From: Acanthochlamys bracteata
Lineage: Eukaryota; Streptophyta; Magnoliopsida; Pandanales; Velloziaceae
Assembly (NCBI GenBank): GCA_019914995.1
Contig: CM034136.1
Location: 7,389,787-7,453,786 of the forward strand
DNA: 64,000 bases
Direction of reading: 5' to 3'
Positions 11,328 through 33,718 of the stretch are shown piece by piece. Made by a program: the position numbers and the translations under genes. The first letter of the stretch is position 1; each line of letters begins with the position of its first letter. The notes beneath the pieces are model-generated. The model was not told where the DNA came from and made no database searches. It saw only the letters and a program-made list of their open reading frames with translations.

Positions 11328-11683
11328 ATGAATAGCTTGTATCACTAGATGTTGTTTAAGACAACAACGATATCTCCATTATTCAATTGCTGTTGTTGTA
11401 ATTTGTAATCTATTTGGATGATAGAATAATGAAAGAAATATTTTCTTCTCATACTTTGCTTCTTCTTTGATCACAAAACTTAGGATTTTTTTCATGCTGG
11501 TGGGTCTGTGCCATGAAGATTGAAGAATTGAAACGACCGCAGCATTGTAGACTTGGTTAAAGTTTTTATTTTAAGCACATTGTTGCATGAACTTTCACAT
11601 TCATGAATTAGGAATTCGTAATAGAAGGACAACGTGCATTATCAATGATATGCAGGGCATATTTCAACACTTTTAGAGGTAGC

Positions 11684-11974: not shown

Positions 11975-14638
11975 ATGGCGGTGTTCGACCGCCGTGTTCA
12001 TTCTCTTCTTCTCTTCTCCTACGTGTTTCTTTTCCTGATCCGAAGACCTTTTGCTTTAACTTTTTCCAACCAGACGGAGCTCGCTGGATTTGAATCGGAG
12101 CTATCGATGCTTCAGCACCAGCTCCGCGGCGTTGTTCGTGTGGTCGACAACTGTTCCTTCTCTGTTGAAAAGTTCGATATGCTCGCTGGTTCTTCCAATG
12201 TTTCATGGTGGGGTGCCGCCGGTGATAACCTTCGTAATCTCTCTGTTGGTAGACGGATTTCTTCATTTTATCTTAATCGCACATTCTCTAACGCTTCATT
12301 TACTGTTAAGCTTCTTCCTGGAATCTCTTTCGATCAGTTCTCAGTGATTTCTGTTTGGGATCCGGCGTCATTTTCCGATTTCGGTCACCTTGCTCTTCCA
12401 CCAGCCAACGATTCAGCTGATTTCAAGTCTCGCCATCACGAGCCGACAATGTTCGATAACTGTGTGGCTCTCTCGCCGAAATACAGACTTCGGTGGACTC
12501 TCTATAACGATACAATCGAAGTTGGATTGGAAGCCGCCGTGGGGTCTCAGTACTACATGGCGTTCGGTTGGGCTGACCCGAAATCGGTTTCTGATTCGCC
12601 TTCCATGCTCCGGGCTGATGTTGCGGTCACTGGATTTACGGAAGAGTTGATTCCGTTTGCTGATGACTACTATATTACTCAGTACAGTGAGTGCTTGCTT
12701 AACAAAGAGGGGATAGTGGAAGGAGTTTGCCCTGATACTATTTATGAGGGTTTAGATGGGCTGGTGAATAATACTAGACTGGTTTATGCTCACCGGAGGG
12801 ATGGGGTTTCCTTTGTTCGGTATCGCCGGCCATTGGTGACAGAAGATGAGAAGTATGATGTCCATGTAGAGAAGGGAGCAAACATGACTGTGATTTGGGC
12901 CTTAGGGTTGATAAGGCCGCCTGACACTTTGCGGCCATATTACCTTCCTCAGAACCATGGTGGACCGCGACTTGAGAAGTATGGGTATTTGACATTTAAT
13001 GTGTCAGCAAACATGAACAATTGTCTTGGGTCGCTGGATGCAGAGGACAAGGAGGACCAGGATCTGATTATTGTCGATGGGAAGACACTGCTTACTGTGA
13101 CGTCTGGCCCTGCCATTCGTTATCCAAATCCGCCCAACCCGTCAAAGGTGCTGTATATCAATAAGAAGGAAGCTCCTTTGGTGCGGGTCGAGAGGGGAGT
13201 TCAGGTGCCTTTTTCAATCCAAGCGGGACATGATGTTGCACTCTACATTACCTCTGATTCCATTGGAGGCAATGCGACTGTAAGAAATGCATCAGAGGTG
13301 ATCTATTTTGGAGGACAAGATGCAGAGGGAGTGCCTGCTAGTCCGACAGAATTGACCTGGTTGCCAGACAGGAATACACCTGATATAGTCTTCTATCATT
13401 CGATCTATGAATCAAAGATGGGATGGAAGATCCAGGTGGTCGATGGTGGTCTCTCGGATATGTATAATAACAGTGTGTTGTTGGATGATCAGCAGGTCAC
13501 CTTCTTCTGGACCTTGTCCAAGGATTCAATATCAGTTGCTGCCAGAGGCGAGAAGAAAAGTGGGTACCTTGCAATTGGACTTGGAAGCGGTATGATTAAC
13601 AGCTATGCTTATGTGGGTTGGATAGACAGCAGTGGGAAGGGCCATGTAAGTACTTACTGGATTGATGGAAAGAATGCAATGAATTTGCACAGAACTTCTG
13701 AGAACCTTACTTATGTCCGGTGCAAGTCAGAGAACGGCATCATAACATTTGAGTTTACTCGTCCTTTATCACCTTCATGTAGTGGGAGAATAGAGTGCAA
13801 GAATATTATTGATCTGACTACTCCCTTGAAGGTTATTTGGGCAATGGGTGCCAAATGGTCAGAAAATCACTTGACAGACAGGAATATGCACTCTGTTACA
13901 AGTAGTAGGCCCGTCCGTGTGCTGTTGATGCGAGGTTCAGCAGAGGCTGAGCAGGATCTCCGTCCTGTTCTTGCTGTTCATGGGTTTATGATGTTTGTTG
14001 CTTGGGGTGTTTTGCTACCTGGAGGGATCATGGCTGCTAGGTATTTGAAGCATGTTAAAGGTGAAGGGTGGTTTCAGCTGCATGTTTGTTTGCAGTATTC
14101 AGGGTTAGCCATAGTCTTTTTTGGTGTGGTATTTGCTGCTGCAGAGCTTAAGGGGTTTTACATCACTTCTGTGCACGTTAAGTTTGGTGTTACTGCTATA
14201 CTCTTGGGATGTCTACAGCCAATTAACGCGTACTTTAGACCCAAAAAGCCTGCAAGTGGTGAGGTTGCTTCTACAAAGAGAATCATTTGGGAGTACTTCC
14301 ATATTATTACTGGAAGGTGCACAATTCTAGTTGGGATAGCTGCACTTTTCAGTGGCATGAAACATTTAGGGCATAGGTATGACAGTGAGAATGTTGATGG
14401 GCTCACTTGGGCATTGATATTATGGATTTTGGCTGGAACCTTGTTGGTTATGTACTTGGAATACTTGGAGGTGAAGCAAAGGAGAACTAGTAGGAATTCT
14501 TTCAGAGGCAATTGGGTTTTAGGAAACGGTGATGAAGACGACTCTGCTGATCTTCTGCAGCCTAGTCGACTGCCTGCTGAACCAGAGCGTCATTCTTCTA
14601 CAAGAATGGAAGTGCAGCTGGAACCTTTGAGTAGATAG
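11975..14638 (+). CDS. DM13, DOMON and cytochrome b561 domain protein, 887 aa, intronless
   Basis: Likely a trans-membrane electron-transfer protein: an extracellular haem- or ligand-binding DOMON part joined to a six-helix cytochrome b561 core that passes ascorbate-derived electrons across a membrane. A signal peptide occupies about residues 1-28. A DM13-like region (CSFSVEKFDMLAG...WWGA) and DOMON units (YYMAFGWAD and YLAIGLGSGM regions) follow. From about residue 655 there are helices with the b561 histidines in AVHGFM, FQLHVCLQ, SVHVKFG and EYFHIITGR. The acidic C-terminal tail faces the cytosol by prediction. The layout and length match the Arabidopsis At5g54830-type protein. The frame is one exon. 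The neighbouring chorismate mutase on the same strand is probably independent. Confidence 0.93.
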   Translation: MAVFDRRVHSLLLFSYVFLFLIRRPFALTFSNQTELAGFESELSMLQHQLRGVVRVVDNCSFSVEKFDMLAGSSNVSWWGAAGDNLRNLSVGRRISSFYLNRTFSNASFTVKLLPGISFDQFSVISVWDPASFSDFGHLALPPANDSADFKSRHHEPTMFDNCVALSPKYRLRWTLYNDTIEVGLEAAVGSQYYMAFGWADPKSVSDSPSMLRADVAVTGFTEELIPFADDYYITQYSECLLNKEGIVEGVCPDTIYEGLDGLVNNTRLVYAHRRDGVSFVRYRRPLVTEDEKYDVHVEKGANMTVIWALGLIRPPDTLRPYYLPQNHGGPRLEKYGYLTFNVSANMNNCLGSLDAEDKEDQDLIIVDGKTLLTVTSGPAIRYPNPPNPSKVLYINKKEAPLVRVERGVQVPFSIQAGHDVALYITSDSIGGNATVRNASEVIYFGGQDAEGVPASPTELTWLPDRNTPDIVFYHSIYESKMGWKIQVVDGGLSDMYNNSVLLDDQQVTFFWTLSKDSISVAARGEKKSGYLAIGLGSGMINSYAYVGWIDSSGKGHVSTYWIDGKNAMNLHRTSENLTYVRCKSENGIITFEFTRPLSPSCSGRIECKNIIDLTTPLKVIWAMGAKWSENHLTDRNMHSVTSSRPVRVLLMRGSAEAEQDLRPVLAVHGFMMFVAWGVLLPGGIMAARYLKHVKGEGWFQLHVCLQYSGLAIVFFGVVFAAAELKGFYITSVHVKFGVTAILLGCLQPINAYFRPKKPASGEVASTKRIIWEYFHIITGRCTILVGIAALFSGMKHLGHRYDSENVDGLTWALILWILAGTLLVMYLEYLEVKQRRTSRNSFRGNWVLGNGDEDDSADLLQPSRLPAEPERHSSTRMEVQLEPLSR

Positions 14639-15535
14639 GATACAGTCGGTCCTCTTAGCACTTTATGAAACTCACCACATGTTGATTTTAGTTTTTCCAG
14701 CGATACAAGAAGTCTGGATCCATGGTGATGTGAGCTGATTAAGACGGTGACTACTTGATAATGACAGGACAGTTGCATTGTGCATTGAGTTTTAGCGAGC
14801 AGAGGATTCAGTTGTCACAATTCCCTCAATTCTGCTTGTCCGAATGTGTATACAATTTTGGTAGAGAAACTTATTTGCATTGGAAATGGTTGGCTCCGAG
14901 TGTCCTGACCGAGCCCATATTCATCTACTTGGTTTTGTTCTATTCAATGTTCATATAGCGTCATGATGTAGAGAATATCTAATCGATGCAATTCATTATA
15001 GTGCAGTACTGAAATTTCCTTCAAGTTTAGCATCTCAGTAATACTGGAAACTGAAATTTCCTCAGTGATGAAGGAACTGCATATGCAGTTGTGAGCTGGG
15101 TTTTCTGACGTAGTTGCAGAAGATTGCGACGTCATTTTTTTCTTCGACAGGAAGTGTATAAAAAGAAGTATTCGTTGCCATGGCAAGATTCTGAATTGAA
15201 TTTTAGTTGCTGGTTTTATAAGATTTGTTATCTATTTTTTGAGAGCTTTTGAGGTTACCATAGGTGATTTCTATATGAATATAACTAATTTCTTACGGTT
15301 GATAGCTTCTGGAGGCACAAATGGATAATATATTGGTACGAGTTTCCGATAGAACTAATTTTCTTCAATGATGATATTGGCTTTTCAAGAAAATGGTTTA
15401 TAATGGTCCAATATTATTGGTTTTGATGCTGATGCGTATTGCCATCTTTGTCTAACCATATTGGTTGATGCCTGAACATCTATAGATAAGAGCTCCCTTA
15501 CAGTCTATGATGGAACGAATCGGTGTTCTGATATA
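14639..15535 (+). other. 3' flank of the DOMON/b561 gene
   Basis: Unique sequence between the stop codon and the first X repeat. Its proximal part is likely 3' UTR. No further gene was recognised. Confidence 0.45.
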
Positions 15536-16340
15536 GTTTGCATCAAATGTTAGTTTTTTGGTAGGTAATATGTTTTTGCTAGATCTGGTAAAATCTGATA
15601 TTTCCTACAATACATATCATTGTTCTACAGTACATCTTCTGATATTTTAGTTTGGAATCACGGTTGGTTTCTAATTTAACGACTTTGCAAAAAACTTTGT
15701 TGTCCTTTTGCTTCTGTGAAATGTTCTTGATAACTCTGAATCAGAGTTCCATAACTCCTGTGCAAGTTCAACACCTAGTTCAGCTTCACTGCCTAAAAGT
15801 GGTCAGGATTTCATAACTCTTGTGCAGGCAGTTTTGGACATCGGCCTTGTCAACGATGGCTACAGGCGGTAAGGTAGAATTACGGAAGAAAAACTAGTGA
15901 AGGTAAATCCTCACCCCAGGTATGTCTCTTTTTTGAACTGTGACTCTTAAATTATGCTACATACTTTCTTTACATTTTTTTTTGGTCTTTTACGTACTTC
16001 TCATAAGTATCCAATAAGCAACGTGAAAAGACCGCTTAAGATACTTTAGAAGTATTCTTTATTTTAAAATGACTCTCAATTCTCAACTGAAACGTTCCCT
16101 ATGGCTGTTAGATGTTTTGAATGAACTTACCAAATTTATCAGTTCCTATAAAAAATGCAGATACTTTAGATTCATAGCTAATAGTTTATACATGAAAACT
16201 TTTAGCAATGCTGTACGCTATTTGTTATGACGTTATCCAGTGTTGGGTGGGCCGGTCCAGACCGGACCGTATGGACCAGCTTAGGCCCAGTAAAGGGTGT
16301 GGTGTTTATATTAAAGGAACCCAGCAGAAACCAATCTCAC
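15536..16340 (+). repeat. X repeat, copy 1 (805 bp)
   Basis: First of five copies of an about 800 bp segment starting gtttgcatcaaatgttag and ending accaatctcac. On its left it joins unique sequence (gttctgatata) with no LTR between; on its right it joins the truncated Copia LTR L1. Near its end are GGGCCGGTCCAGACCGGACC, an imperfect palindrome, and AGGCCCA. It also contains a short open stretch ending in VNDGYRR and a stop at about 15870. Confidence 0.95.
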
Positions 16341-16495
16341 ACCACTTCTGCGTCAACTACATGCTCTTTATATAGAGCAGAACAAAAACAAACTTAAGCA
16401 AAAGATTAGGATCTTAACAATCAGTTAGAGATTTGGTAAACTTTTTCAAAAGATTGAATCTCCTAAATACTAGATCTACTTAGAAATGTTCAACA
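16341..16495 (-). repeat. Copia 3' LTR, truncated to 155 bp (L1)
   Basis: Read on minus it begins TGTTGAACATTTC and is preceded by the polypurine tract AAGGGAGGGAT (about 16496-16508), the expected 3' LTR arrangement. It matches 23625-23779 of the complete 5' LTR but lacks the last 64 bp, being cut at CTCAC where X1 ends. It contains the TATA-like CTATATAAAGAGC. Confidence 0.85.
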
Positions 16496-16550
16496 ATCCC
16501 TCCCTTAAACTGAAAGTTTAAAAGAAACATTAGTTTGGCTGCAACCTTCC

Positions 16551-17477
16551 TCACGTTGGACTTTCCAGAGAGCAAACTTCAAGTAGTTTTCTAAGCTTCT
16601 GAAATGTGCTTAATTTGAAAGGTTTTGTAAAAATATCAGTAACTTGATCTTCACTACTGCAATAGATGAGATTGATAGTTTCGTCTTTTGAGAAATCACG
16701 TAAAAAATGATATTTTACATCAATATGCTTGCTTCTTCCATGTAGAATAGGATTTTTAGAGAGCTTTATTGCTGAATTGTTGTCACAGTAAATAGGAGTA
16801 GGCCCTTCTTGTTCGAAGTGAAGTTCTTTAAGAATTCTTCGCAACCAAATTGCTTGACAGGCACACGATGTTGTCGCTATGAACTCAGCTTCAGTAGTTG
16901 ATAGAGTTACAATTGGTTACTTCCTTGATGACCATGAAATTACTCCTGAACCCATCATAAAAACATAGCCGGCTGTGCTCTTTCTATCATCAATGTCTCC
17001 AGCATAATCACTGTCTGTAAAGCCAAATAATTCTAATTTTTCACCCTTTTTGTAAACTAATCCATAACTGGTAGTACCTTTCAAATACCTCAAAATTCTT
17101 TTTGCAGCTAAGAGATGAATGTTTTTTGGAGACTCCATATACCTACTAATGAGACTTACAGCATGCATTATATCGGGTCTTGTTGCAGTCAAATACATCA
17201 AGCTTCCCATAATTTGCTTGTAAATAGTGCTGTCAACGTTTTTTCCTTCTGGATCTCTAGTAAGCTTCATACCCATTTCAGTAGGAGTGCAAACAGAATT
17301 ACAATCCTTCATTTGAAATCTGTCTAAAATTTCTTCCACATATCTTTTTTGAGAAAAACTATCAGCAGAAGATTGCACCACTTCTATACCAAGAAAGTAA
17401 TGTATCAATTCAAGGTCTGACATATCAAATTCAACCATCATGGACTTTTTGAAAATTTCAAGCATGGCCTTATCATT
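16551..17477 (-). pseudogene. Copia reverse transcriptase end and RNase H, with stop
   Basis: Continuation of the polyprotein downstream (on minus) of the hAT insertion. It starts at NDKAMLEIFKK, directly after the YVDD region left on the other side. It includes HYFLGIEV, the RNase H motifs FTDSDYAGD and DDRKSTAGYVF, then STTEAEF and the terminal VTDIFTKP. A TAA stop at about 16917 lies after SWSSRK where a glutamine codon is usual. With the insertion this marks a dead copy. Confidence 0.9.
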
Positions 17478-17485
17478 TCCAGTAT

Positions 17486-20342
17486 CAGAGGTGCAAAAAC
17501 AGGCGGGCCGGACAAGAAAGCCGGGCCGAGCTGGCACGGCCCGGGTATGGAATTTTAGATCCGGCCCGGCCCGGCAGCCCGTTATATATATTTATTTTTT
17601 AAATAATAAATTTAAATAATATTTAAAAATATTATTAAATATAAAAAATTGAAAATAACCTTAAAAATTATTACTAAATATAAAAAGCTTAAAAAATAAC
17701 TTTAAAAATTATTATTAAATATAAAAAAATTATTACAATTTGTAATATGTATATAATTATACATTTGAACTTGTACTTGGAATATTTTTATTTAAAAATA
17801 ATTCAGAAAATTGTTCAATCAGGTCTTCATTGTGAGTTGTATGCTGCATTCGTTTGACTGCAAGTTTCCAATCTTTCAAACAAGTTAACACTTCAACCAT
17901 CTCACTAGTAAGTTGTGTTCTGCGTTCTTCAATTATCCTTCCAGCTGTACTAAATGCCGATTCTGAAGACACCGTTGAAACATGAATAGTCAAATATCAC
18001 GTGCTAGTTGAGAAAGTACTGGATATCTTGTTGAATGTGTCTTCCACCAGTTCAAAATATTAAAATTTTTTGGGTTTTCATCGTCTTCTACAATGACAGT
18101 ATCACCTTCAAAATATTTGTTCAAGTCTGAAGAAGATTACATGCTGCTTGAAGTTGAAGATGGTGTTGAACTTGAGCCAGGCTTGATGGAGATCAAAGAC
18201 CAATTGATCGTTTTTTTCTTCTTACTTTGATGAGTTTGTGCAGGTGCCGCTTGTTGTTGTTGATTTCGTAAATTACCAAACCTAACTTCATAAAGATCAT
18301 AAACTTCATACAGCTTATTACGAGCATTAGTTATTTGCAATTGAATATCGGAAATATCTAAATATATACAAATATATGTAAGAGTATTAGTAAAATATAC
18401 AAATTTAAATCTAGGATCTAACATAAATGCAAAACAATATAAAAGAGGAATATCAGACCAATATTTTTTTAATTTTTTAGTCATTATTGTAACTATAGGT
18501 CCAAGTAATTCATCTTTTATATGCGAATATAGCATAGTAGCTATATTAAGAATTGAATGTAAAACTAATGGAGAAGTAGGATAGTAAACACCAGATAATA
18601 AAACAGTAGCATAATAAAAAGTTTCTAAAAATTCTACAAGTTTTTCAGCAATAATCCAATGAGTTTCAGTAAATATATTGTTACCCATTCTTATATTATA
18701 ATAAATCATAAGTACATTTTTATAATCTAAAGTACTTTTCAACATTAGATAAGTAGAATTCCATCTTACTGGCATATCAAGGTTGAACTTTCGGGGCTTT
18801 AGATGTTCTGCTATGCAATATCTTAAATTCAGCTAAACGTTGATTTGAACTAGTAATTCAAGAAATAGCAACGCGAATATCATTAATCTGATCACTTACT
18901 AGCTGCATACCTGATTGTACGATTAAGTTGATAATATGGGAAGCACAACGTTGATGTAGTAAAATTCCTCCTATGTATGAGCTTAGCTCCATCTCAAGAA
19001 ATTGAATTGCTTTGGTATTTGCTGAAGCATTATCTAGGGTGATGGAGACAATGCGGTTGCTTATACCCCATTCTTTAACTACATTTATAATGCGCTCAGA
19101 AATATTTTTAGCATCATGTGTGGAATCAATAAGTCTAAGACCAATAATTTTTTTTTGCATAATCCACTGTGAATCTAAATAATGAGCAACAACACTTAAA
19201 TAATCTTGTTTAGCTCTACCACTCCAAATATCAGATGTTAACGCAATAAAAAAATTTAAAAAAGTTAATTCAGATTTTAATATAGTGCGCATTTTATTGT
19301 AATAAATAATAATATCACTTCTAATAGTTGTTCTACTAACTTTTTGAAATTATGGACAATATGCTCTTTTAATATGTTCTTCATAAAAAGATGACTCACC
19401 AAAACTAATAGGTAAATCCATAGCACAAATCATACGCGCAAGAGATTCCCTAGCTACATTAGAATCATAAGACCAAGTACTTACCGAACCATTCGTGTTG
19501 AATTGAAGTTGAGTTTGTGAAGGTTCCTTTCCGATTTGTTTTTTGGAAGCACATTTTTTACAATGTGCTAGTAAATATCGGGTACCTGCACTAGGATTAG
19601 CAGTTAAAAGTTTATTGCAAAATTTACATTTCGCCATTTTTAATTGAGTACCATCACTTAGCACTGTATATTCAGCAGTGAAATAGTTCCAAGCTTCAGA
19701 AGTTGGGACTTTTGAACGTTTTGTTGTTGTCGATGTCGATCCTGAAGCCGAACTATTTCCAACACTTGGAATTGAAGGAATTTCGTTATATCTTTGATGA
19801 AAACTTCTTCTTGGAAGAATATCATCTCCTTTCTCTATACGGGCAACATCTATTTCCTCCAAATTTTGATCGTCCATGCCATAGTCATCCAAATTAATGG
19901 CATGAAAATTTGGATCCATTTGAAATAACAACTAAAATTTTGATAATTAAAGAAATATGAATTTAAAAAATAAAGCAAGAAATAATTTTTTTTATATTTT
20001 GTGTAAAATTGAGTAGAATGAAAATGAGATTTGAGAGAAATGTGTGAAAAATGAATGAGAATATGATGTATTTATAGGTGAAAAGTTGAATTTAAAAAAA
20101 AAAAATAACGTTGGTGGCAGCCAACGGTAACAACCGTTGGCTGGCTGTACAACGGTCATGCTGACGTCAGCATGACAGAAAATAATTTTAGTTTTTGACC
20201 TGGTCAACGGTCAACATTGACCAGGTCAAAGTCAATGTTGACCGATCAACAGAACAGTGCCGGGCGGGCGGGCCCGGTCCTGTTACTGTTCACCGGGCCG
20301 GGCTAGCCGGCCCGTTTGGCCCGGCCCATATTTGCATCTCTA
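17486..20342 (-). mobile_element. hAT (Ac-like) DNA transposon, 2857 bp, nested in Copia
   Basis: The ends are CAGAGGTGCAAA and, at the other side, TTTGCATCTCTA, imperfect 12 bp inverted repeats of the hAT type (YARNG termini). The 8 bp target duplication TCCAGTAT is present on both sides (17478-17485 and 20343-20350). Sub-terminal regions carry many GGGCCGGGC-type boxes, as in Ac-like elements. Transposase fragments are read on minus. Insertion into the Copia reverse transcriptase gene shows that the hAT is the younger element. Confidence 0.95.
17757..19931 (-). pseudogene. hAT transposase (RICESLEEPER-like), disrupted
   Basis: Three fragments in order on minus. 19931-19350: N-terminal part with a BED zinc finger (SEAWNYFTAEY, CKFCNKLL, then HCKKC). 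19292-18858 with 18775-18137: catalytic region with TSDIWSGRAKQDYLSVVAHY, TLDNASANTKAI, and VRWNSTYLML. 17993-17757: the hAT C-terminal dimerisation block, SESAFSTAGRIIEERRTQL. In-frame stops after RAYCP (about 19350) and near 18858, plus frame changes between fragments, break the gene. The element would need transposase from elsewhere to move. Confidence 0.9.
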
Positions 20343-20350
20343 TCCAGTAT

Positions 20351-22251
20351 AAATCAAATCATCGACGTATAGACAAACTATGAGCATTTTTCCTCCATCT
20401 CCAAATTTTGTAAAAAATGTATGTTCATAAGGGCATTTTTGAAATCCCTCTTTTGAAAAATAAGCATCTATACGACTATACCAAACTCTTGGGGCTTATT
20501 TTAGTCCATAAAGTGCCTTTTTCAATTTATACACTTTATGCTCATTTCCTAATTTCACATAACCAGGAGGTTGATCGATAAATACCTGTTCTTGTAGATC
20601 ACCATGCAAAAATGCTGACTTCACATCCAACTGAAAAATAGGCCATGAGTTTTGAGCTACCAATGCTATCACCATTCTGATTGTATCATGTCTTGCAACA
20701 GGAGCAAAAACTTCTTTATAGTCAACACCAAACTTTCGCTTATAGCCTTTAGCTACTAGACGTGCCTTGTAATTTTCAACCTCGCCATTTTCCTTAAAAT
20801 TTGTCTTGTACACCCATTTGACACCGATTGTTTTGTGTCATATTGGAAGATCAATCAGCTCCCAAGTGTTGTTCTTTTCAATGGCTGCAATTTCATCATC
20901 CATAGCTTTTCTCCATTTTGATTCTTTGACAGCATCTTCAAAGATTGTAGGATCACAATCTGAAAATAAAGCAAAATAGGTAAGTGGATCATCAGATTGA
21001 TCAACCCGATTTACCCTCAATCATCATCCATGCGAGGTCTTCTTTCGACACGTTGTTCTCGCCCATCGTTAGCTTGAGTAATCGTTGTTGAACATTCTCC
21101 ACCGGGCCGTGTCTCTCATCTTCATTATCTCCATCAAAATCAGTAGGAATTTGTTGTTTAACAGCATCGTTGCTCCATGACCAGAAGCTTTCTTCATCAA
21201 AAACAACATCGCGGCTGGTAACAATTTTCGTAGTGTTAGGATTATATAGCTTATAAGCTTTTGATTGATCACTAACACCAAGAAAGATGCATTTTTCTCC
21301 CTTGTCATCTAGCTTTTGTCTCTTATGATCTGGAATACGATCATAGGCAATACATCCAAAAATTTTGAAATGATCTACACTTGGTCTTCGTCCGCTCCAT
21401 GCTTCCTCAGGTGTTATATTTTGAACAGCAAATGTAGGACTTTTGTTTAAATTATAAATGCTCCAATTGACTGCCTCGGGCCAGAAACTTTTTGGAACAC
21501 CACTTCCTGTCAAAAGACTTCTTACCTTGTTCAGAATTGTGCGATTTTTTCTCTCACACACACCGTTTTGTTGAGGAGTATAAGCTCTTGTGAGTTGTCT
21601 TTTGATGCCATGTGTCTCACAAAAATTTGAAAATTGATGTGAGTTGTACTCTCCACCACGATCAGTGCGTAATACTTGTATTGAGCTGCCAGCTTCTTTC
21701 TCAACAAGTATTTTATAACTTTTGAAAGCTATAAAAGCTTCAGATTTCTCCTGTAGAAAATAAACCCATGTTTTTCTACTATAATCATCAACAAAGGTAA
21801 TGAAATACCTTTTACCTCCATTCGAAGTTGGGTTTATTGGCCCGCAAATATCAGAATGCACAAGTTCCAACACTTTCTTTGCTCTCCATGATTTTTCTTT
21901 TGGAAAAGGGTCACGATGTTGTTTGCTAACAATACATTCTTCACAAATATCTGAAGGATAATTAAATTTCGGAAGACCTGTCACCATATTTTTCTGTTGT
22001 AAAGTCTTCAAACCACCAAAGCTAAGGTGACCATAGCGAAAATGCCATAGCCATGCCAAATCTTTCAACTTTGTTGAGAAGCAAGAATGAGTAGTATTAT
22101 GGAGATGAAGTGGAAATAATCGATTTGCCGTCATATTGACTTGAGCAATTAAGCTCAACTTTGCATCTCGAATTTGACATACTCCATCTTTGATAGAGAT
22201 TTCATATCCCTTTTCTTGCAACTGTCCCACGCTTAGTAAGTTAGTCTTCAA
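20351..22251 (-). pseudogene. Copia integrase and reverse transcriptase N-part, broken
   Basis: The integrase part (22251-21001) has the zinc-binding HH-CC region (HFRYGHLSF ... CEEC), then catalytic D, D and E in HSDICGP, RTDRGGEY and TPQQNGVCERKNRT. The reverse transcriptase begins at about 21020 (WRKAMDDEIAAIEKNNTWEL) and continues with the FQLDVKSAFLHG block. There are stops at about 20835 and 20495. The YVDD active-site region ends at LIYTG next to the hAT insertion. No intact polyprotein remains. Confidence 0.92.
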
Positions 22252-23438
22252 ATCTGGAACAAAAAGGACATTAAAAATAGTTTGAGTAGAATTTTCTTTA
22301 GTTTGGATGGTTTTCTTCCTCTTCCCATCACAGAGATTTTAGAATTGTCCCCAAACTTCACATCGTCGCGGAAAGATTCATCTAATGTAGAGAATGCAGA
22401 CTTATCTCTACACATGTGGTTGCTGCAACCTGTGTCTAAATACCACAAATTCTTGTTGGTTTCTTCTTTTGCCTGATAAACCATCAATAAAGATATTTCT
22501 TCTTCCTTCTCTGCAAAATTTGATTTTTCACCATGCCCTTTAGATAAGTTAGTCCAACATTCTGATTTATAATGACCATACCTATGGCATCTGTAGCATT
22601 CAACATTAGACATGTCTGCTGACTTTGGTCTAGTAGAGTGGTGGCCTCCTTGTCCTCTTCCTCTTCTTTGAAAATCATGAGAATGATTATCTTGCTGTTG
22701 GTATTGCTTACGATCTCCATTTTGTCTGCCTCCTCTACCTTCTCTGCTTCTTCCTCTTCCTCTTTCTCTATTTGTTGGCGAAGAACGATCCTCTGCTGAG
22801 ACCTTCAATGCTTGCTCCTCTTTCTCTTGCTGATTAATTTTCTGCTCATGTATCATCAAAGAACTTTGTAATTCGTCAAGTGAAAGTTCATCTATATTTT
22901 TAGATTCTTCTATAGCACAGACAATAAAATTAAATTTTGGTGTCATATATCGAAGAATCTTCTCAATAATAGTTACGTCCTCTGTTTTGTCACCATGGAT
23001 CCGCATTTTGTTGACGATTGCCATCGTTCGAGAGAAATAATCTGTTACGGATTCTCCCGATTTCATCTGAAGCAATTCAAACTCCGAACGAAATGCTTGA
23101 AGCTGTTGCCTCCTTGCCCTTACTGATCCTTGATACTTCTTCTTCATGAAATCCCAAATATCTTTGGATGTATCTTTGCAAAGAATTGTCTCCAAGATTG
23201 ATCTATCAATGGCCTGGAACAAATAATTTTTAGCCCTGAGATCCTTCAACTTTAGTGCATCTAATTCTGCTTGCTGTGCATCGGTCGATTGAACTCCATG
23301 GGCTGGTTCTGCTACTCCAGAAATGAGAACAGCCCAATATTCTTTGGATCTAAGAAAATTTTCTATTAACTTGCTCCAATGGTCATAGTGACCATTAAAG
23401 CGAGGAATCGCAGGTTGCACGAAATTGTCGGAAGCCAT
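22248..23438 (-). pseudogene. Copia gag and protease, frameshifted from integrase
   Basis: Starts at the MASDNF methionine. It contains the gag core (FNGHYDHWSKLIENFLRSKE, then WDFMKKKYQGS), a CCHC zinc knuckle (CYRCHRYGHYKSEC) and the aspartic protease motif LDTGCSNHM. After VMGRGRK the frame shifts relative to the integrase ORF, with only a four-base overlap. Copia gag-pol is usually one frame, so this looks like a disabling frameshift. Confidence 0.9.
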
Positions 23439-23560
23439 AATTACTTGCTGCTGCAATGTCACAAAGTAGGAGGTATACTTGTTGCTGCAATACTATGTTA
23501 ACACTCAAATGTAAGTGGCTCACTCACTCTCCTCACTCCTTAACCTATCTCTGATACCAC

Positions 23561-23779
23561 TGTAATGAATTTAATGGTGCAACACATAGAAAAAAACAGA
23601 GAAACAAAGAAATGTATTGCTCACACCACTTCTGCGTCAACTACATGCTCTTTATATAGAGTAGAACAAAAACAAACTTAAGCAAAAGATTAGGATCCTA
23701 ACAATCAGCTAGAGATTTGGTAAACCTTTTCAAAAGATTGAATCTCCTAAAGACTAGATCTACTTAGAAATGTTCAACA
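23561..23779 (-). repeat. Copia 5' LTR, complete, 219 bp
   Basis: Bounded by TG...CA on both strands (plus strand tgtaatg ... gttcaaca). Read on minus, it ends one base before the primer-binding site TGGTATCAGAG. It contains a TATA-like CTATATAAAG. It is the only full-length LTR in the block; L1 to L4 all lack its last 64 bp (23561-23624). Confidence 0.88.
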
Positions 23780-24583
23780 GTTTGCATCAAATGTTAGTTT
23801 TCTGATAGGTAATATGTTTTTGCTAGATCTGGTAAAATCTGATACTTCCTACAATACATATCATTGTTCTACAGTACATCTTCTTATATTTTAGTTTGGA
23901 ATCACGGTTGGTTTCTAATTTAACGACTTTGCAAAAAACCTTATTGTCCTTTTGCTTCTGTGAAATGTTCTTGATAGCTCTGAATCAGAGTTCCATAACT
24001 CCTCTGCAAGTTCAACACCTAGTTCAGCTTCACTGCCTAAAAGTGGTCAGGATTCCATAACTCTTGTGCAGGCAGCTTTGGACATCGGCCTTGTCAACGA
24101 TGGCTACAGGCGGTAAGGTAGAATTACGGAAGAAAAACTAGTGAGGTAAATCCTCACCCCAAGTATGTCTCTTTCTTGAACTGTGACTCTCTATTTAAGC
24201 TACATACTTTCTTCACATTTTTCTTTGGTCTTTTACGTACATCTCATAAGTATTCAATAAGCAACGTGAAAAGACAGCTTAAGATACTTTAAAAGTATTC
24301 TTTATTTTAAAATGACTCTCAATTCTCAACTGAAACGTTCCCTATGGCTGTTAGATGTTTTGAATGAACTTACCAAATTTATCAGTTCCTATAAAAAATG
24401 CAGATACTTTAGATTCATAGCTAATAGTTTATACATGGAAATCTTTAGCAATGTTGTACGCTATTTGTTATTACGTTATCCAGTGTTGGGTGGGCCGGTC
24501 CAGATCGGACCGTATGGACCAGCTTAGGCCCAGTAAAGGGTGTGGTGTTTATATTAAAGAAACCCACCAGAAACCAATCTCAC
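23780..24583 (+). repeat. X repeat, copy 2 (804 bp)
   Basis: Same segment as 15536-16340, with scattered substitutions. Preceded by the complete Copia 5' LTR and followed by truncated LTR L2. An open frame inside it (24312-24527) has no homologue that I recognise. Confidence 0.95.
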
Positions 24584-24738
24584 ACCACTTCTACGTAAAC
24601 TACATGCTCTTTATATAGAGCAGAAAAAAAATAAACTTAAATAAAAGATTAGGATCCTAACAATCAGCTAGAGATTTGGTAAATTTTTTCAAAAGATTGA
24701 ATCTCCTAAAAACTAGATCTACTTAGAAATGTTCAACA
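24584..24738 (-). repeat. Truncated Copia LTR L2 (155 bp)
   Basis: Matches 23625-23779. Joined to X2 at CTCAC and to X3 at ...TTCAACA/GTTTGCATC. It has several private substitutions. Confidence 0.9.
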
Positions 24739-25539
24739 GTTTGCATCAAATGTTAGTTTTCTGGTAGGTAATATGCTTTTGCTAGATCTAGCAAAATCTG
24801 ATACTTTCTATAATACATATCATTGTTCTACAGTACATCTTCTGATATTTTAGTTTGGAATCATGGTTGGTTTCTAATTTAACAACTTTGCAAAAAACAT
24901 TGTTGTCCTTTTGCTTTTTTTGAAATGTTCTTGATACCTCTGAATCAGAGTTCCATAACTCCTGTGCAAGTTCAACACCTAATTCAGCTTCACTGCCTAA
25001 AAGTGGTCAGGATTCCATAACTCTTGTGCAGGCAGCTTTGGACATCGGCCTTGTCAACGATGGCTACAGGCGGTAAGGTAGAATTACGGAAGAAAAACTA
25101 GTGAAGGTAAATCCTCACCCCAGGTATGTCTCTTTCTTGAACTGTGACTCTTTAATTATGCTACATACTTCCTTCACATTTTTCTTTGATCTTTTACGTA
25201 CTTCTCATAAGTATCCAATAAGCAATGTGAAAAGACCGCTTAAAATACTTTAGAAGTATTCTTTATTTTAAAATGACTTTCAATTCTCAACTGAAACGTT
25301 CCCTATGGCTGTTAGATGTTTTGAATGAACTTACCAAATTTATCAGTTCCTATAAAAAATGCAGATACTTCAGATTCATAGCTAATAGTTTATACATGTA
25401 AATCTTTAGCAATGCTGTATGCTATTTGTTATGACGTTATCCTGGGTGGGCCGGTCTACACCGGACCGTATGGACCAGCTTAGGCCCAGTAAAGGGTGTG
25501 GTGTTTATATTAAAGGAACCCACCAGAAACCAATCTCAC
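24739..25539 (+). repeat. X repeat, copy 3 (801 bp)
   Basis: Same layout as the other X copies. It has a short deletion in the palindromic region near its end (cctgggtgggccgg instead of ccagtgttgggtgggccgg), shared with copy 5. Confidence 0.95.
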
Positions 25540-25694
25540 ACCACTTCTGCGTCAACTACATGCTCTTTATATAGAGCAGAACAAAAACAAACTTAAATAA
25601 AAGAATATGATCCTAACAATCAGCAAGAGATTTGGTAAACTTTTTCAAAATATCGAATCTCCTAAAGACTATATCTAGTTAAAAATGTTCAACA
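25540..25694 (-). repeat. Truncated Copia LTR L3 (155 bp)
   Basis: Matches 23625-23779 with the same CTCAC junction on the X side. It is followed directly by X copy 4. Confidence 0.9.
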
Positions 25695-26503
25695 GTTTGC
25701 ATCAAATGTTAGTTTTCTGGTAGGTAATATATTTTTGCTAGATCTGGTAAAATCTGATACTTCCTACAATACATATCATTGTTCTACAGTACATCTTCTG
25801 ATATTTTAGTTTGGAATCACGGTTGGTTTCTAATTTAACGACTTTGCAAAAAACCTTGTTGTCCTTTTGCTTCTGTGAAATGTTCTTGATAGCTCTGAAA
25901 CAGAGTTCCATAACTCCTGTGCAAGTTCAACACCTAGTTCAACTTCACTGCCTAAAAGTGTTCAGGATTACATAACTCTTGTGCAGGCACCTTTGGACAT
26001 CGGCCTTGTCAACGATGGCTACAGGCGGTAAGGTGGAATTACGGAAGAAAAACTAGTGAAGGTAAATCCTCACCCCAGGTATGTCTCTTTCTTGAACTGT
26101 GACTCTTTAGTTATGCTACATACTTCCTTCACATTTTTCTTTGGACTTTTACGTACTTCTCATAAATATCCAATAAGTAACGTGAAAAGACCGCTTAACA
26201 TACTTTAGAAGTATTCTTTATTTTAAAATTACTCTCAATTCTCAACTGAAACGTTCCCTATGGCTTTTAGATGTTTTGAATGAACTTACCAAATTTATCA
26301 GTTCCTATAAAAAATGCAGATACTTTAGATTCATAGCTAATAGTTTATACATGGAAATCTTTAGCAATGCTGTACGCTATTTGTTATGACGTTATCCAGT
26401 GTTGGATGGGCCGGTCCAGACCGGACCGTATGGACCAAATTTTTTAGGCCCGAGAAAGAGTGTGGTGTTTATATTAAAGGAACCCACCAGAAACCAATCT
26501 CAC
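25695..26503 (+). repeat. X repeat, copy 4 (809 bp)
   Basis: Same segment. It has a small local change near the end (accaaattttttaggccc). The short open stretch ending VNDGYRR is kept. Confidence 0.95.
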
Positions 26504-26658
26504 ACCACTTCTGCGTCAACTACATGCTCTTTATATAGAGCAGAACAAAAACAAACTTAAGCAAAAGATTAGGATCCTAACAATCAGCTAGAGATTTGGT
26601 AAACTTTTTCAAAAGATTGAATCTTCTAAAGACTAGATCTACTTAGAAATGTTCAACA
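26504..26658 (-). repeat. Truncated Copia LTR L4 (155 bp)
   Basis: Matches 23625-23779; the same junctions as L2 and L3. Confidence 0.9.
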
Positions 26659-27457
26659 GTTTGCATCAAATGTTAGTTTTCTGGTAGGTAATATATTTTT
26701 GCTAGATCTGATAAAATCTGATACTTGCTACAATACATATCATTGTTCTACAATACATCTTCTAATATTTTAGTTTGGAATCACGGTTGGTTTCTAATTT
26801 AACGACTTTGTAAAAAACCTTGTTGTCCTTTTGCTCTGTGAAATATTTTTGATAGCTCTGAATCAGAGTTCCATAACTCCTGTGCAAGTTCAACACCTAG
26901 TTTAGCTTTACTGCCTAAAAGTGGTCAGGATTCCATAACTCTTGTGCAGGCAGGTTTGGACATCGGCCTTGTCAACGATGGCTACAGGCGATAAGGGAGA
27001 ATTACGGAAGAAAAACTAGTGAAGGTAAATCCTCACCCCAGGTATGTCTCTTTCTTAAACTGTGACTCTTTAATTATGCTACATACTTCCTTCACATTTT
27101 TCTTTGGTTTTTTACGTAATTCTCATAAGTATTCAGTAAGCAACGTGAAAAGACCGCTTAAGATACTTTAGAAGTATTCTTTATTTTAAAATGACTTTCA
27201 ATTCTCAACTGAAATATTCCCTATGGCTGTTAGATGTTTTAAATGAACTTACCAAATTTATCAGTTCCTATAAAAAATGCAGATACTTTAGATCCATAGT
27301 TAATAGTTTATACATGGAAATCTTTAACAATACTGTACGTTATTTGTTATGACGTTATCCTGGGTGGGCCGGTCCAGACCGGACTGTATGGACCAGCTTA
27401 GGCCCAGTAAAGGGTGTGGTGTTTATATTAAATGAACCCACCAGAAACCAATCTCAC
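26659..27457 (+). repeat. X repeat, copy 5, holding the HisA promoter region
   Basis: The last X copy ends at caatctcac and continues into unique sequence (cggcacatcaaacg) and the HisA gene 70 bases later, without an LTR. This is therefore the copy in the ancestral position, and X as a whole looks like the natural upstream region of HisA. Confidence 0.9.
27365..27407 (+). promoter_or_regulatory. Palindromic GGTCC region and site II boxes upstream of HisA
   Basis: Contains TGGGCC (27365-27370), the imperfect palindrome GGCCGGTCCAGACCGGAC, and AGGCCCA (27400-27406), about 120-160 bases before the HisA start codon. The site II class is common in plant housekeeping promoters. Equivalent boxes are present in the other four X copies. 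Confidence 0.45.
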
Positions 27458-27527
27458 CGGCACATCAAACGTCTTACGATCATCGTCAAACCATAATCCC
27501 AACAGCAAGCAAACGGTTTGACCAAGC

Positions 27528-30112
27528 ATGGCGACTCGTTTGGTCTCAGGATTCAAACCGTTTCTAGGCAGAAGCAGAAAAGATGTTCTCTACCTCCCGC
27601 CCTCTAAGTGTTCGAGTAAATGCCCCAACGGGATAAACATTTTCTGTTAACACTCTTTGTCTTGTTTTTGTTAATCAGTCTTCTTAATGAAGGTATTTGG
27701 TTGCACTTGTGGTGATCGGTGTTTTGATATCGCAGGCCATGTTCAGCTTGTTCGATGTGCCGTTCGGATCCGGCCATGCATTGATATACACAAGGTGAGC
27801 TCTGTTTGATGATTGTGAGGTTTAGTTTGGTGAGGATTTTTAGCTTTTTTGTTAGAGATAAACTCCTTTATGATTAGCGCCGACATTGCGAGTTTTTTTA
27901 TGGGATTTTGGGCAGGGAAAAGTGAAGCAAATTGTTGGATCCACATTGAAAGATGCAACTGATGAGGTTTCTAGTTTGATCACCAACTTTGAATCGGATA
28001 AATCACCTGCAGAGTTCGCTAGTCTATATAAGGAAGATGGACTTACGGGTGGTCATGTTATTATGCTTGGCGCCGATGATGAAAGTAAATCTGCTACATT
28101 GGAAGCATTACATGCATATCCTGGTAATTTGACTCCTTCAGCAGAATATATTTTACAATAAAAGGTTTACACAAGCATTCATGACAACTTTCTGATGCTA
28201 GTTACTTAGGTTTCCTATCTATCATGGCATAGTTTTCCTTAATCTTCTTAATTGAACTGTATGTCCTTAGGAGGTTCTTGACTTACAGGTGGTATGCAAG
28301 TTGGAGGAGGTATAAATTCGGATAACGCCATAAGTTATCTTGAGGAGGGCGCTAGCCATGTGATTGTCACATCGGTATGACATTTTAGATGGCACGATCC
28401 TATTGTTCATCTGCACTATCGTAATGTTGGTGCCAGAATCCAATATGCTGTCAGGAATGCATGAATTGTGTAGTGAGCATAAGATTCGTCCTGAACGTAA
28501 GTAAAAATTGGAGAAACCTCGAAAAATTGCAGGAAATACTATTTATGTCAAAGTATATCTTTCTTCCGATCATAAAAATGTCCATTCTTATAAACTGTCT
28601 AGCTTGTAGATGTGAATCCAATCTGTTTTGCTTACTAATAAGTATAAATAGTTTATACTATCTTTAGCGAACTTCAGCAGTCGTTTATCTAGCTCAGGTT
28701 TATACTTTCGGAGAGTATATGTACTATTAACACTAGCATACTATTGGGGCTTGTGGTAGATACTTTCTAACTTGCAAATGGCTTCTCTTTATGTTTATTA
28801 TGCAGTATGTTTTCAGTGATGGCAGAATGGACCTTGAACGCCTTGAAGGTCTTGTCAAGTTGATTGGAAAGAATAGGCTTGTGTTGGACCTTAGTTGTAG
28901 AAAGAAGGTACGTGACCTCCTTTTTTAAACTTATATCATTATAACTTGTGAACTCAAAACAAATATGCATAATCTGGCATCTCCTTCGTTTATATGTCAG
29001 CTCATTTCTTTTACCCTATTTTATCAGTAACCCAATAGGTAATTATGTTTCCCTTCCAGTTTAGTTGATGCCTCGTTTTTTAGTCGACTTGGAATCTTAG
29101 AGCAACGATACTAGGTTGTTAAGATGCAAATTTATATTTGTATATGTTTTCAGGATGGCAGGTATGCAATTGTTACCGACAGGTGGCAGAAGTTGAGCGA
29201 TGTTTTTGTTGATGAACAAACTTTGAAATTCCTTTCAGCTTATGCTGATGAATTTTTAGTGCACGGAGTTGATGTTGAAGGGAAAAGGTAGCGTTTTGGT
29301 GTCTAGTGACAAATATTTACATTTGTGTTTTAGCTGATAGATTGTTTAAGCATTCACAAAATGCCTTTTCTTCAGGCCTCCATCTCGCAACACTATTGAC
29401 AAAAATGTTGAACTTATGCTTATTAGTTTTCTTCTGATGTGTATGCTAGTCAACCTCTAGAAACTTTATTCCTATGGAGAGTCTTCTTGAAGGCACTTCT
29501 CTTGACATCTTCATCATATCAAGGGAATGAGAATCTCATTTCTCTTTCTGCCAACTGTGAAAACTTTGAGCCTTTTTCTTGCTCCCTGCTTTTCTCTCTT
29601 TATTGCTGATTAAAAAGAAAACAGAATTCGTTTATTCTTGTTTTATGGGATTACTAATCATCTGGAAATATTTTGCGACAGTATTGTATTTTATGTAGAT
29701 TGCATAAACGAATTGGTGTACAAATTGTTTCTAGTCACCTGGTATCCCTATTCTATATTGATTTCTAAAGCTTCTTGTTTTTGACAGACTAGGAATTGAC
29801 GAGGAGCTTGTTGAACTGCTTGGTCTTTTTTCACCTGTATGTATAGTTCTTCTCTTAAACCCAACCCAATAGAATACCTTAGTAGATGAAATACATTATA
29901 CCAAAGAGAGTTAGTAGTGACATCTGTGTTAACAGATTCCGGTGACATATGCCGGTGGAGTTACAACGATATCTGATCTGGAACTAATCAAGACAGCAGG
30001 CTCTGGACAGGTTGATGCAACTGTTGGAAGTGCTCTTGATATATTCGGCGGGGAACTGCCATACAGGGAAGTTGTTACTTGGCATGAAAAACAAGCTATG
30101 GCAATGAAATAG
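27528..30112 (+). CDS. HISN3: HisA: phosphoribosylformimino-AICAR-P isomerase, plastidial, 8 exons, 300 aa
   Basis: Fourth step of histidine biosynthesis: the Amadori isomerisation of ProFAR to PRFAR in plastids. Exons: 27528-27615, 27736-27794, 27916-28123, 28289-28374, 28806-28907, 29154-29287, 29788-29836, 29936-30112; GT-AG introns and consistent phases give 300 residues. The beta/alpha barrel starts at [15 protein letters not shown], followed by [17 protein letters not shown]-type [57 protein letters not shown] and [10 protein letters not shown]. About 45 Ser/Arg/Lys-rich residues precede the barrel and fit a transit peptide. The exon 1 donor was chosen because it restores the frame into exon 2. 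The gene lies just downstream of the X/LTR array, so its promoter is the last array unit. Confidence 0.93.
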
Positions 30113-30376: not shown

Positions 30377-31029
30377 TCACAACCAATGAGCAACAGCAAG
30401 CATCGCCGCCCACACCAAGGTGGCGCTCGAAAGAGTGACAGAAGTGGCGGCAGAGGTAGTGACATCGGAGCCGCTGTGACGTGTTGAGGAAGAAGAAGAA
30501 CTTCCCGGCGGTGAGTGAAGCGGCACAACTTTTACGGCAACCTTCATTCCTGAGAAACACTGACCATTGCCGCAGATGAAGTAGTACATCCCAGGACTAT
30601 CAAGAGGAATGAAATCTTTGCCGGAGCTCCAGTTCCCGACCGCCGAATCAAGCGTGCAGTTGTCGTACCCCGTATTGTTTACTTCGAACACGTTGTAGAC
30701 ATTCTTCTGGTACCTGAAAGCTGCAAAAAAACAGAAGAAAACTCACTTTTTTTTTCAAAATTTGAACAAATGCGAGTGTGTTCTTCTTGTAGAACAAGAT
30801 CTTTTGAAGAGAAAGGTTGAGAGAAACAGATCTGGAATTTACAGATGAGATCTCCGACGTAGAAGGTCTGATTGGTAGACCAGTCAGTGTAGTTGATGTT
30901 TGGGTTCCAACCAAGATGACCGCCGACGATGTGGTCGGTGGCCCCAGCCATGTAGGACCCGGATAATGCTGCCGCTATTATAAACACAAGAAGAAAACTA
31001 ACAAGCTCTCTTGACGAAGATCTCTTCAT
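30377..31029 (-). CDS. Early nodulin-like (phytocyanin-fold) protein, 2 exons, 176 aa
   Basis: A GPI-anchored, secreted phytocyanin-like protein of the cell surface. Exons 31029-30843 and 30720-30377, GT-AG, intron phase 1 inside the codon before SFRYQK, the position usual in this family. Features: signal peptide about residues 1-29 ending AGA, plastocyanin-like fold (GWNPN, FYVGDLISFRYQKNVYNVFE, CTLDS, GMYYFICGNGQCFSGMKV), Ser-rich linker, hydrophobic C-terminal GPI signal ending AVAHWL. The His copper ligands expected after FxVGD-preceding strand and in the GHC-type motif are absent (NQTFYVGD, GNGQC), so it is unlikely to bind copper and fits the ENODL class. Confidence 0.9.
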
Positions 31030-33718
31030 GTCGTTGTTATTGTTGCAGAGTCTCTGCTCTGCTTTGCTTTGTTAGTGAATCTGAGCTTGCTCCTCTACTG
31101 GCTGAAGACTGACTTATGATTGGTGGGTTATTTTAGAGACGAAATGAATAGTTACCATTCTGTCCCTAAGTTAGCATGGGCCATTTTTTGATAAATACAA
31201 TGTGGATCAAAGGTTTCACACTATAGCCCAATAGAGCAAGTCCATTAAAAATTTGTATACATTTATAGAACAGTTTCCTTGAAGATGCCCGTGAATTAAA
31301 ATATGGATTGGCATGTTATTCAAGGGAATGAATTTTTGCAGAAAGAGAGCTGCACTCTACAAAGCGGTTAGTGGGAAGCCATGATTAGAAGGGGAAAAAA
31401 AAGAACCTGACTGGGTCCACCAATTTGACCCAACTCAAACGAACATGCAGACCCGAATTTTGAAAGTACTTTTAAAGTAAATTTTTTATAAAATAATAGA
31501 TATTTTTATTTTTTTAAAAATTAAATTTTATTTTTTTGATTTAAAAAAGATAAAAAAAATAATAAAAAAATTTTACTATATTAATTTTTTATAATTTTTA
31601 AATAAATTCTAAATACTTGTAATAGATATATTAAAAAATGTGAAATAGAAAAATAAAATAAATTTTTTGAGAAATGTTTTTCCAAACACCTATTTTCTTA
31701 TTGACCCAATTCAAACCAACACAAAGTTTAACATTTTTTGACGAAAATAAAAAAATTATAATGTACAAATTTTGTAATATATAACATATTTTTTTATAAT
31801 ACTATAACAATTTTATTAAAAATATAAAGTAATTATTTGAAACAATAAGTAATTCAAAATTTTTATCTAAACTGAATTAACAAATCGTTTCAATACATAT
31901 TTTATAAGTATATAAAAAATTTATTTAAAAATTTAGAAAGTGTAAAAAATTTTTACGAAGTGAGATCTTTTTATTACATATTTTTATTATTTTTTTGAAG
32001 TAAAAAATTAGAACTTATTTTTTAAAATGAACAAAAATACTTTCATTTCATAAAAATTTCATTTTATAAGCAATCCCAAACGATCCCTTGAATTTCCAAT
32101 TCGAAGAGTTCCAAACTCAATAAGAACGCGCCCTAATAAATCAATTGAAAACAACACCAAATGGGACAAGGAGCAGGAGGCAAATGATTATTGGGTTCCG
32201 AACCCACACCGGTTCTTCCTTACGGCGCAGTTCGGCGTACTTATGATCCTAAAATAAAATTATTTATTTATTTATATATATTTTTTATTTATACATATAA
32301 TGTATATATTTTCTTATTTTAAAATTTTTTATAAATATTATAAATTTTATTTAAAAATATAAAATATTTATTAAAATAATAAGTATTTTAAAAGCAATGC
32401 CAAACATACTGTCGTATAACAAGGCATGCAGCTTGTGCATGAAAGAAGAAAAATGTGTACAGGAATATAAAAAGTCCAGAAATGGAAAGTGTCAAATTAA
32501 TCAGAGTTAGCCATGAAGAAGGATTCTTGGCTGGCAGTGGGGCTGCTCAAACATTACTACCCACAGCATTTACTCACTCATTGAAGGATCTGAATAAAGA
32601 AGACAATAGCATTGTGCACATGTCTAAATTAAGCATCTAAATAAAGAACTACTCCTGAAATCAATGGTATATGAAACCTTCTAAGGGCGTGTTTCAAAGA
32701 GCAGACCAAAAAACAACTCTCAAACTGCACCAGTAGTTAGAAGTTGGTAACAAAACACGCCAGATTTAGAAGAAGAGATCATTGTTAGATTCTGTGAAAG
32801 ACATCTGCGGTAGACGAATGAAATATCTCCAGGTTTCTTAAGATAAAAAATGCAAACTCGAGCCAATCGTTTCATAAATAATAAATAAGTATGTCAGCAC
32901 ATTTCAAGACTCACCAAATATTATCTTGTATGCTGTATCCGATGAATAGGTTTAACTTTGCTTCAAAGATCAAGTTCAAACCAAACAGCAAAAAATTTTC
33001 ATAAAAAGAATTAATACTTTTAAATTAAAAAACTTCAAAAAAAGAATTAGTTAGTTGACCAGTGAGCATATTTATGTGAAGGTGTAAACAGAATATTTAT
33101 CAGATAACATTCTCGCCAAAAAGTAAAACAAGTTATAGGAAAAAGTAAAGTTGTTAGCAACTAGATTCGACAATGCTATCTATATAGCAGAAACGGCACC
33201 TTTGCTTTGAGAAAGATATGCGTAAACCATCTGCATCACCTTTAATTCTACTAGAAGCACCATCTTCTCAAATTATTTTGAATCTTTGATTGAGATTATA
33301 GTTTTCCCCTACTGAATCATTACTTTGTCAAAGTCAAAATGAGCAGAAAACAGATACTTTAACTTCACTACATTAAATCGATCATCATGCCTGGAATAAA
33401 AATATGGTAATACATATAGAACCGAGTGACTAGGGCAAACCCAAAGTATAAGAATAGGCTGAGGATTTGAAAAGACTGCCAAAATGCTATTAAAATCAGC
33501 ATTTTTCTTCATTTTGCATGAAAAAGAATCATATATACAAAAAAAAGGAAAACATTCAGGCAAACTAACAAATCTGAGAAAGATCACAACGCACCACCCT
33601 GAGTTGACCACATTCCAATCAGTAACTCATATTGTACAGCCTATGCAATCTAGTTGCTATACGAAACAACCATGCTATTTCAACAAGAAAGCAACCAAAA
33701 TTAAAGGAGTAAGAAGGC
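31030..33718. other. Intergenic, AT-rich, with dispersed repeat
   Basis: The first part should hold the early nodulin-like promoter. About 31455-31690 is an AT-rich stretch similar to 5918-6160 and 7606-7800. At 32685-32765 a short sequence begins GGGCGTGTTTC and ends AAACACGCC, echoing the MITE at 1040-1288. No gene was recognised in 32.1-33.7 kb. Confidence 0.4.

Follow-up and report, generated by a model that had tools for sequence, protein, structure and literature searches.

A five-copy array of HisA upstream sequence and truncated Copia long terminal repeats in Acanthochlamys bracteata, probably the recombination scar of a single insertion

How the region upstream of a metabolic gene can be multiplied together with pieces of a retrotransposon is the question raised by a locus of Acanthochlamys bracteata, which we analyzed in a stretch of 64,000 nucleotides (assembly GCA_019914995.1, contig CM034136.1, forward-strand positions 7,389,787 to 7,453,786; hereafter the window, whose own positions are used throughout). 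Self-comparison of the window, which is without any N, revealed a sequence repeated five times, at intervals of about 960 bp and, once, of 8.2 kb. Five host segments of about 0.8 kb (X1–X5, 94–96% alike) alternate with four 155 bp pieces (L1–L4) of the long terminal repeat (LTR) of a Copia retrotransposon, and the minus-strand Copia itself, with one complete LTR of 219 bp, is placed between L1 and X2. The initial annotation had described a five-copy array of this kind, and both its order and its sizes were borne out by self-comparison and exact slices. Its broader observation, that a gene's upstream region has been amplified together with LTR pieces, likewise holds, beside a Copia element and ahead of a real HisA gene. 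We conclude that the array is probably a recombination scar on one retrotransposon insertion, produced by illegitimate and then homologous unequal exchange.

All four truncated LTRs are exactly 155 bp long and cut at one base, as previously claimed. Each starts at the identical base directly after the motif CTCAC, and the proposed match of L1–L4 to positions 23625–23779 was confirmed, with 5, 10, 12 and 3 mismatches per 155 sites, respectively. The complete LTR was also found where it had been reported, although it is longer than the earlier coordinates imply. At their right edges, X1–X4 read ACCAATCTCAC followed by the LTR sequence ACCACTTC; X5 ends in the same CTCAC and continues into the HisA leader, and the complete LTR reads TTGCTCACACCACTTC across the CTCAC region. 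One type of illegitimate junction, joining the X end to the LTR at 5 bp of CTCAC present in both parents, explains all four X/L joins. The units stand head to tail and in register at four of four X/L junctions and at four of four junctions between an LTR or L and the following X.

At the left edges, X1 reads TATA followed by GTTTGCATC, and X2–X5 read the LTR end ...TTCAACA followed by GTTTGCATC. The match between X1 and X2 starts at the LTR edge (BLAST runs one chance base further), which is the relation between an unoccupied and an occupied site; the left edge of X1 is therefore no breakpoint. The initial annotation had placed this edge correctly as a join to flanking DNA, but what it marks is an unoccupied integration site. 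Similarly, its view that X5 holds the ancestral position stands for the right edge, which is continuous with HisA, but X5 alone is not ancestral, since the corresponding left flank is that of X1. As read from these edges, the ancestral locus is the left flank of X1, a single X and the right flank of X5.

The junctions suggest a history of three steps. First, as read from the junctions, a low-copy Copia entered at GTTTG on the minus strand, some 0.9 kb beyond the stop codon of the upstream gene and 0.8 kb ahead of the predicted HisA start. Second, one illegitimate exchange, whose junction is seen and whose mechanism we infer, would have joined CTCAC at the X end to CTCAC within the LTR, giving the X/L join. 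Third, homologous unequal exchanges, X by X and L or LTR by L or LTR, would have multiplied the L-X unit. At least one exchange would have involved a homologue without the insertion, the source of X1's unoccupied left edge; without such a homologue, X1-L1 would require the integration site to have been restored precisely, which is unlikely.

Two alternative orders, each comprising about five or six events by count, fit the data equally well. In one, the illegitimate exchange would have connected an empty homologue, broken at the X end, with the left LTR of the homologue carrying the insertion to produce X1-L1-internal region-LTR-X2-HisA, and later X-by-X and LTR-by-L exchanges would have added L-X units. 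In the other, LTR-X would have been duplicated in tandem on the right by the illegitimate event, before X1-L1 arose through two homologous crossovers, one of them with an empty allele. An origin of the X/L junction in reverse transcription, considered for a piece that covers about U3, was dropped by reasoning, since X lies upstream of the transcript that Copia itself makes and the LTR ahead of X2 ends cleanly.

The Copia element was recognized by Pfam matches to Retrotran_gag_2 (E 1.3e-27), rve (E 1.3e-16) and RVT_2 (E 1.2e-12, C-terminal part only), which follow one another on the minus strand in the order of Ty1/copia elements, with gag and integrase before reverse transcriptase. By eye, the LTR ends are TG...CA (TGTTGAACA...CATTACA), what we take to be a primer-binding site, TGGTATCAGAG, lies one base from the 5' (complete) LTR, and a presumed polypurine tract, AAGGGAGGGAT, adjoins L1. 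The element does not have two full LTRs with a 5 bp target duplication: its left LTR is 155 bp and its left duplication is lost. Five of five other complete family members have both features (by eye; one terminal LTR base is changed in copies C1 and C12), and the truncated left LTR is therefore secondary here rather than the sign of a different family. In a solo LTR of the family, the target duplication agrees in four of five bases (by eye).

A search of the 195.5 Mb, 557-contig assembly with a 220 bp LTR query matched 20 places, namely the complete LTR of the locus, L1–L4, 11 LTRs elsewhere and four partial matches (70–77%). The 11 LTRs elsewhere occupy six loci at 89–96% identity and belong to five complete elements and the solo LTR. 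Matches beginning at query base 61 were confined to L1–L4, and no other LTR cut at this base was found in the assembly with this query. The sequence ACCAC after CTCAC is common to L1–L4 and the complete LTR and is missing from 11 of 11 LTRs elsewhere; the five members of the locus also cluster together in the LTR tree (local support 0.83). The Copia is itself interrupted by a hAT element, which has the inverted ends CAGAGGTGCAAA and TTTGCATCTCTA and inserted later than the Copia.

Pairwise differences among the X copies amount to 3.7–6.0% of aligned sites (10 of 10 pairs), with a mean distance of 0.051 (bootstrap 0.041–0.061). The distance between L1 and the complete LTR is 0.033 (0.007–0.069), and between the two LTRs of each of the five other elements it is 0.028–0.068. 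By these distances, the insertion is, within error, about as old as the amplification. Plant substitution rates lie at 7e-9 to 1.3e-8 per site and year, at which the absolute age would be some 2–4 million years. The X tree is a star, with internal branches taking up 1.0% of its length and supports of 40 and 53; four informative substitutions were seen, and recurrent GC-to-AT change would be expected to produce 4.9 ± 1.9 on a star (P = 0.77 for four or more). On this tree, all steps would have fallen within a short time, after which the copies would have diverged largely without homogenization.

Both ends of the amplified unit coincide with predicted transcription starts. In X, TATATTAA at 27424 predicts by TATA spacing a start at 27453–27458, and in the LTR the minus-strand TATA-like sites at 23658 and 23656 predict one at 23622–23629. 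CTCAC lies at both predicted starts (27453–27457 and 23620–23624), and L therefore covers about U3 alone and X ends at about the predicted HisA start. Open promoter DNA at both breakpoints may be the reason why the breaks fell there. According to the excerpted text of PMC12985737, open promoters are favoured meiotic break sites in plants, which makes such a link plausible. We offer as a tentative and rather doubtful proposal that the two ends of the amplified unit, which would span from the HisA start to the LTR start (the U3/R border), were set by breaks at two active, open promoters. If this were true, new insertions beside genes would be prone to start-site-to-start-site duplication while transcribed, before silencing, and a causal coincidence would tie the transcription or open chromatin of new insertions to the type of duplication that they cause. 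At each X/L join, the two promoters would converge, so that transcription from either would run through the other.

Several observations weigh against this history or against parts of it. X3 and X5 have a 5 bp deletion in common and L2 and L3 two adjacent changes, neither of which suits perfect simultaneity: either the rounds were staggered in time to some degree or there was conversion. Over 155 bp, L2 and L3 carry 8 and 10 changes, versus 3 in L1, 2 in the complete LTR and 1 in L4, an excess that a simple clock does not foresee. The uninserted allele is a postulate, as a search of the assembly turned up no second haplotype of this locus. With regard to the start sites, there are 205 maximal matches of at least 5 bp between the LTR and X plus leader, of which 11 fall close to the LTR start and 6 close to that of HisA (author-chosen neighbourhoods of 18 and 21 bp, 23615–23632 and 27445–27465), and CTCAC is the single one near both, but this count was made after the coincidence had been noticed and the starts are TATA-spacing predictions only. 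Longer matches were on offer yet unused, 54 of the 205 being of at least 6 bp.

The recombination history addresses the origin of the array and can hold alongside a reading that concerns its later state, in which converging X and U3 promoters would yield both RNA strands, small RNAs and spreading methylation, as in maize b1. We regard such silencing as unlikely, if conceivable. Every X points towards a U3 promoter that fires the other way, and GC-to-AT changes outnumber AT-to-GC changes by 65 to 10 in X (65 of 1520 C/G copy-sites; 10 of 2500 A/T copy-sites), like the 58 to 8 of the 11 LTRs elsewhere (58 of 795; 8 of 1600). However, GC-to-AT change is alike in CG (7/150, 4.7%), CHG (14/320, 4.4%) and CHH (44/1050, 4.2%) contexts, which lacks the CG/CHG excess of stable methylation, and the bias may be genome-wide. 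It neither shows nor excludes methylation of the array.

An improbable alternative for the amplification itself is an extrachromosomal circle of 960 bp, consisting of L and X and closed at CTCAC, which would have multiplied by rolling-circle amplification and gone back into the locus through its homology in X, yielding several identical units in one event. The star-like X tree and the single closing junction would agree with this, and an L-X multimer entering an uninserted allele would yield X1-L1-X... directly. Such a circle is, however, not visible in a genome, the internal region would still have to be gained in a second step, and the changes shared by X3 and X5 and by L2 and L3 suit stepwise rounds.

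It seems similarly improbable that the X copies have been kept by selection as tandem HisA promoters or enhancers that raise or tune expression. The last exon of HisA has a single match in the assembly, functional promoter repeats are in print (G564, excerpt of PMC4441743), and TATATTAA is identical in all five X copies. The LTR TATA region is also unchanged in L1–L4 and the complete LTR, but so few sites are involved that this invariance is not significant evidence of constraint. Substitutions from the five-copy majority number 15, 17, 21, 21 and 29 in X1–X5 (total 103) and are scattered along the unit; X5, the copy beside HisA, has the most and no stronger conservation. The promoter-proximal columns 651–700, 701–750 and 751–800 hold 9, 7 and 7 substitution columns, versus a mean of about 5.6 per 50. 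Columns 701–750 were rejected as the most variable stretch, because 9 of their 16 variable columns stem from two indels. A 50-codon frame ending in a stop (23964–24113 in X2 and its equivalents) is open in all five copies, but 16 replacement against 1 silent codon changes argue that it has not been kept as protein; with no Pfam match up to E 1 and no match outside the array, it was rejected as a live exon and may be a decayed terminal exon.

Inferring from position, X5 is most likely the HisA promoter, and X1–X4 would most likely be detached promoters facing oppositely firing U3 promoters; an effect of the array on HisA expression is possible. With X5 as query, five places were matched in the assembly, all of them copies of the array (absence of a match does not prove rarity in this search), and X was rejected as a dispersed mobile element. 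An RNA gene within X was rejected too, since Rfam gave no match in 14600–28500 at E values up to 1, and a bacterial promoter scan was uninformative, as expected for a plant. That the array is an assembly artefact is very improbable, since, error-prone as tandem repeats are in assembly, stutter is unlikely to leave each X copy with 15–29 substitutions from the majority, spread along units of unequal length without an N.

Table. Features of the array and its flanking genes, with positions in the window.
Feature	Position	Strand	Description
At5g54830-like gene	11975..14638	+	DM13, DOMON and cytochrome-type domains; single exon, 887 aa, ATG chosen by eye
X1	15536..16340	+	805 bp; left edge TATA/GTTTG, the unoccupied integration site; ends CTCAC
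L1	16341..16495	-	155 bp truncated 3' LTR of Copia, about U3 only; adjoins polypurine tract
Copia internal region	16496..23560	-	Pfam; gag 22.2–23.5 kb, integrase 21.0–22.3 kb, reverse transcriptase end 16.9–17.6 kb
hAT nested in Copia	17486..20342	-	hAT-like RNase-H fold, BED finger; 8 bp target duplication TCCAGTAT
Complete LTR	23561..23779	-	219 bp; 5' LTR of Copia; edges read from sequence
X2	23780..24583	+	804 bp
L2	24584..24738	-	155 bp LTR piece
X3	24739..25539	+	801 bp; 5 bp deletion in common with X5
L3	25540..25694	-	155 bp LTR piece
X4	25695..26503	+	809 bp
L4	26504..26658	-	155 bp LTR piece
X5	26659..27457	+	799 bp; runs on into HisA; TATA-like site 27424, predicted start 27453–27458
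CTCAC microhomology	27453..27457	.	Also at LTR 23620–23624; illegitimate junction reused at X1/L1, X2/L2, X3/L3 and X4/L4
HisA / HISN3-type gene	27528..30112	+	ProFAR isomerase; at least 8 coding exon pieces

The At5g54830-like gene has an intact open frame (PF25489, E 3.6e-64; DOMON, E 1e-39) and shares 89% amino acid and 85% DNA identity with a paralogue on contig C8. HisA matches PF00977 (His_biosynth) at E 3.8e-29, and its best solved-structure match is 9fcf, a ProFAR isomerase (E 4e-122). Left of X1, 14640–15227 and 15424–15489 align with the paralogous region of C8, and this flank is therefore old. The C8 region examined (C8:632000–646900, 14.9 kb, compared with 11.8–41.9 kb of the window) retains the upstream gene and a match to the EMP70 gene, and it probably derives from a whole-genome duplication. 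Within these 14.9 kb, there was no DNA match to X or HisA, and a search with 3 of the 8 HisA exon pieces gave a single weak match (E 0.24). The region was accordingly rejected as an uninserted copy of the locus and informs the age of the left flank only. Several AT-rich stretches of about 200 bp (5934–6138, 7620–7790, 31464–31657, 31888–32086, 51330–51552 and others) have their match in a single AT-rich segment at C8 635.64–635.86 kb and might represent either low complexity or a small mobile element. Elsewhere in the window, 9900–11330 holds exons resembling chorismate mutase, and 30377–31071 (minus strand) an open frame resembling phytocyanin (both by eye). With its intron-bearing genes of plant type and its Copia and hAT elements, the window reads as plant nuclear DNA.

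The interest of the locus lies in the start-site coincidence and in its legible history: with every junction readable, the array is a well-preserved, datable record of a retrotransposon insertion by a metabolic gene multiplying that gene's upstream region. Among the matches listed in literature searches, which were incomplete and covered titles and abstract starts, there was no description of this locus or of a promoter-plus-LTR array. The mechanism is mostly ordinary. In solo-LTR formation by unequal recombination, reportedly treated by Vitte and Panaud in 2003, an LTR-by-LTR exchange can remove the internal region. The same exchange can leave L pieces; the outcome there is one full LTR, whereas here it is an array of host DNA.

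Plants commonly carry tandem LTR-retrotransposon structures, for which LTR recombination between sister or homologous chromosomes is one proposed origin, according to the excerpted text of Morales-Diaz et al. 2025 (PMC11899658). As in that excerpt, a single insertion has here been turned into a tandem structure. The unit there, however, is an LTR plus internal region, with several internal regions sharing LTRs, whereas the array holds one internal region and repeats flanking host DNA with a U3-sized LTR piece. At maize b1, as given in the excerpt of PMC3798267, seven tandem 853 bp copies of locus-unique sequence about 100 kb upstream mediate paramutation. The unit size is similar, and here too the tandem copies are of a sequence unique to one place (five of five X matches lie at the locus) and tied to one gene, but the array abuts HisA and holds LTR pieces. 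Phaseolus G564, in the excerpt of PMC4441743, has five tandem promoter repeats and so resembles the array in having five tandem copies of proximal upstream sequence; its units are 150 bp, with no retrotransposon piece mentioned in that excerpt, whereas those of the array are about 960 bp and include an LTR piece. The array combines features of tandem LTR structures with those of tandem regulatory repeats.

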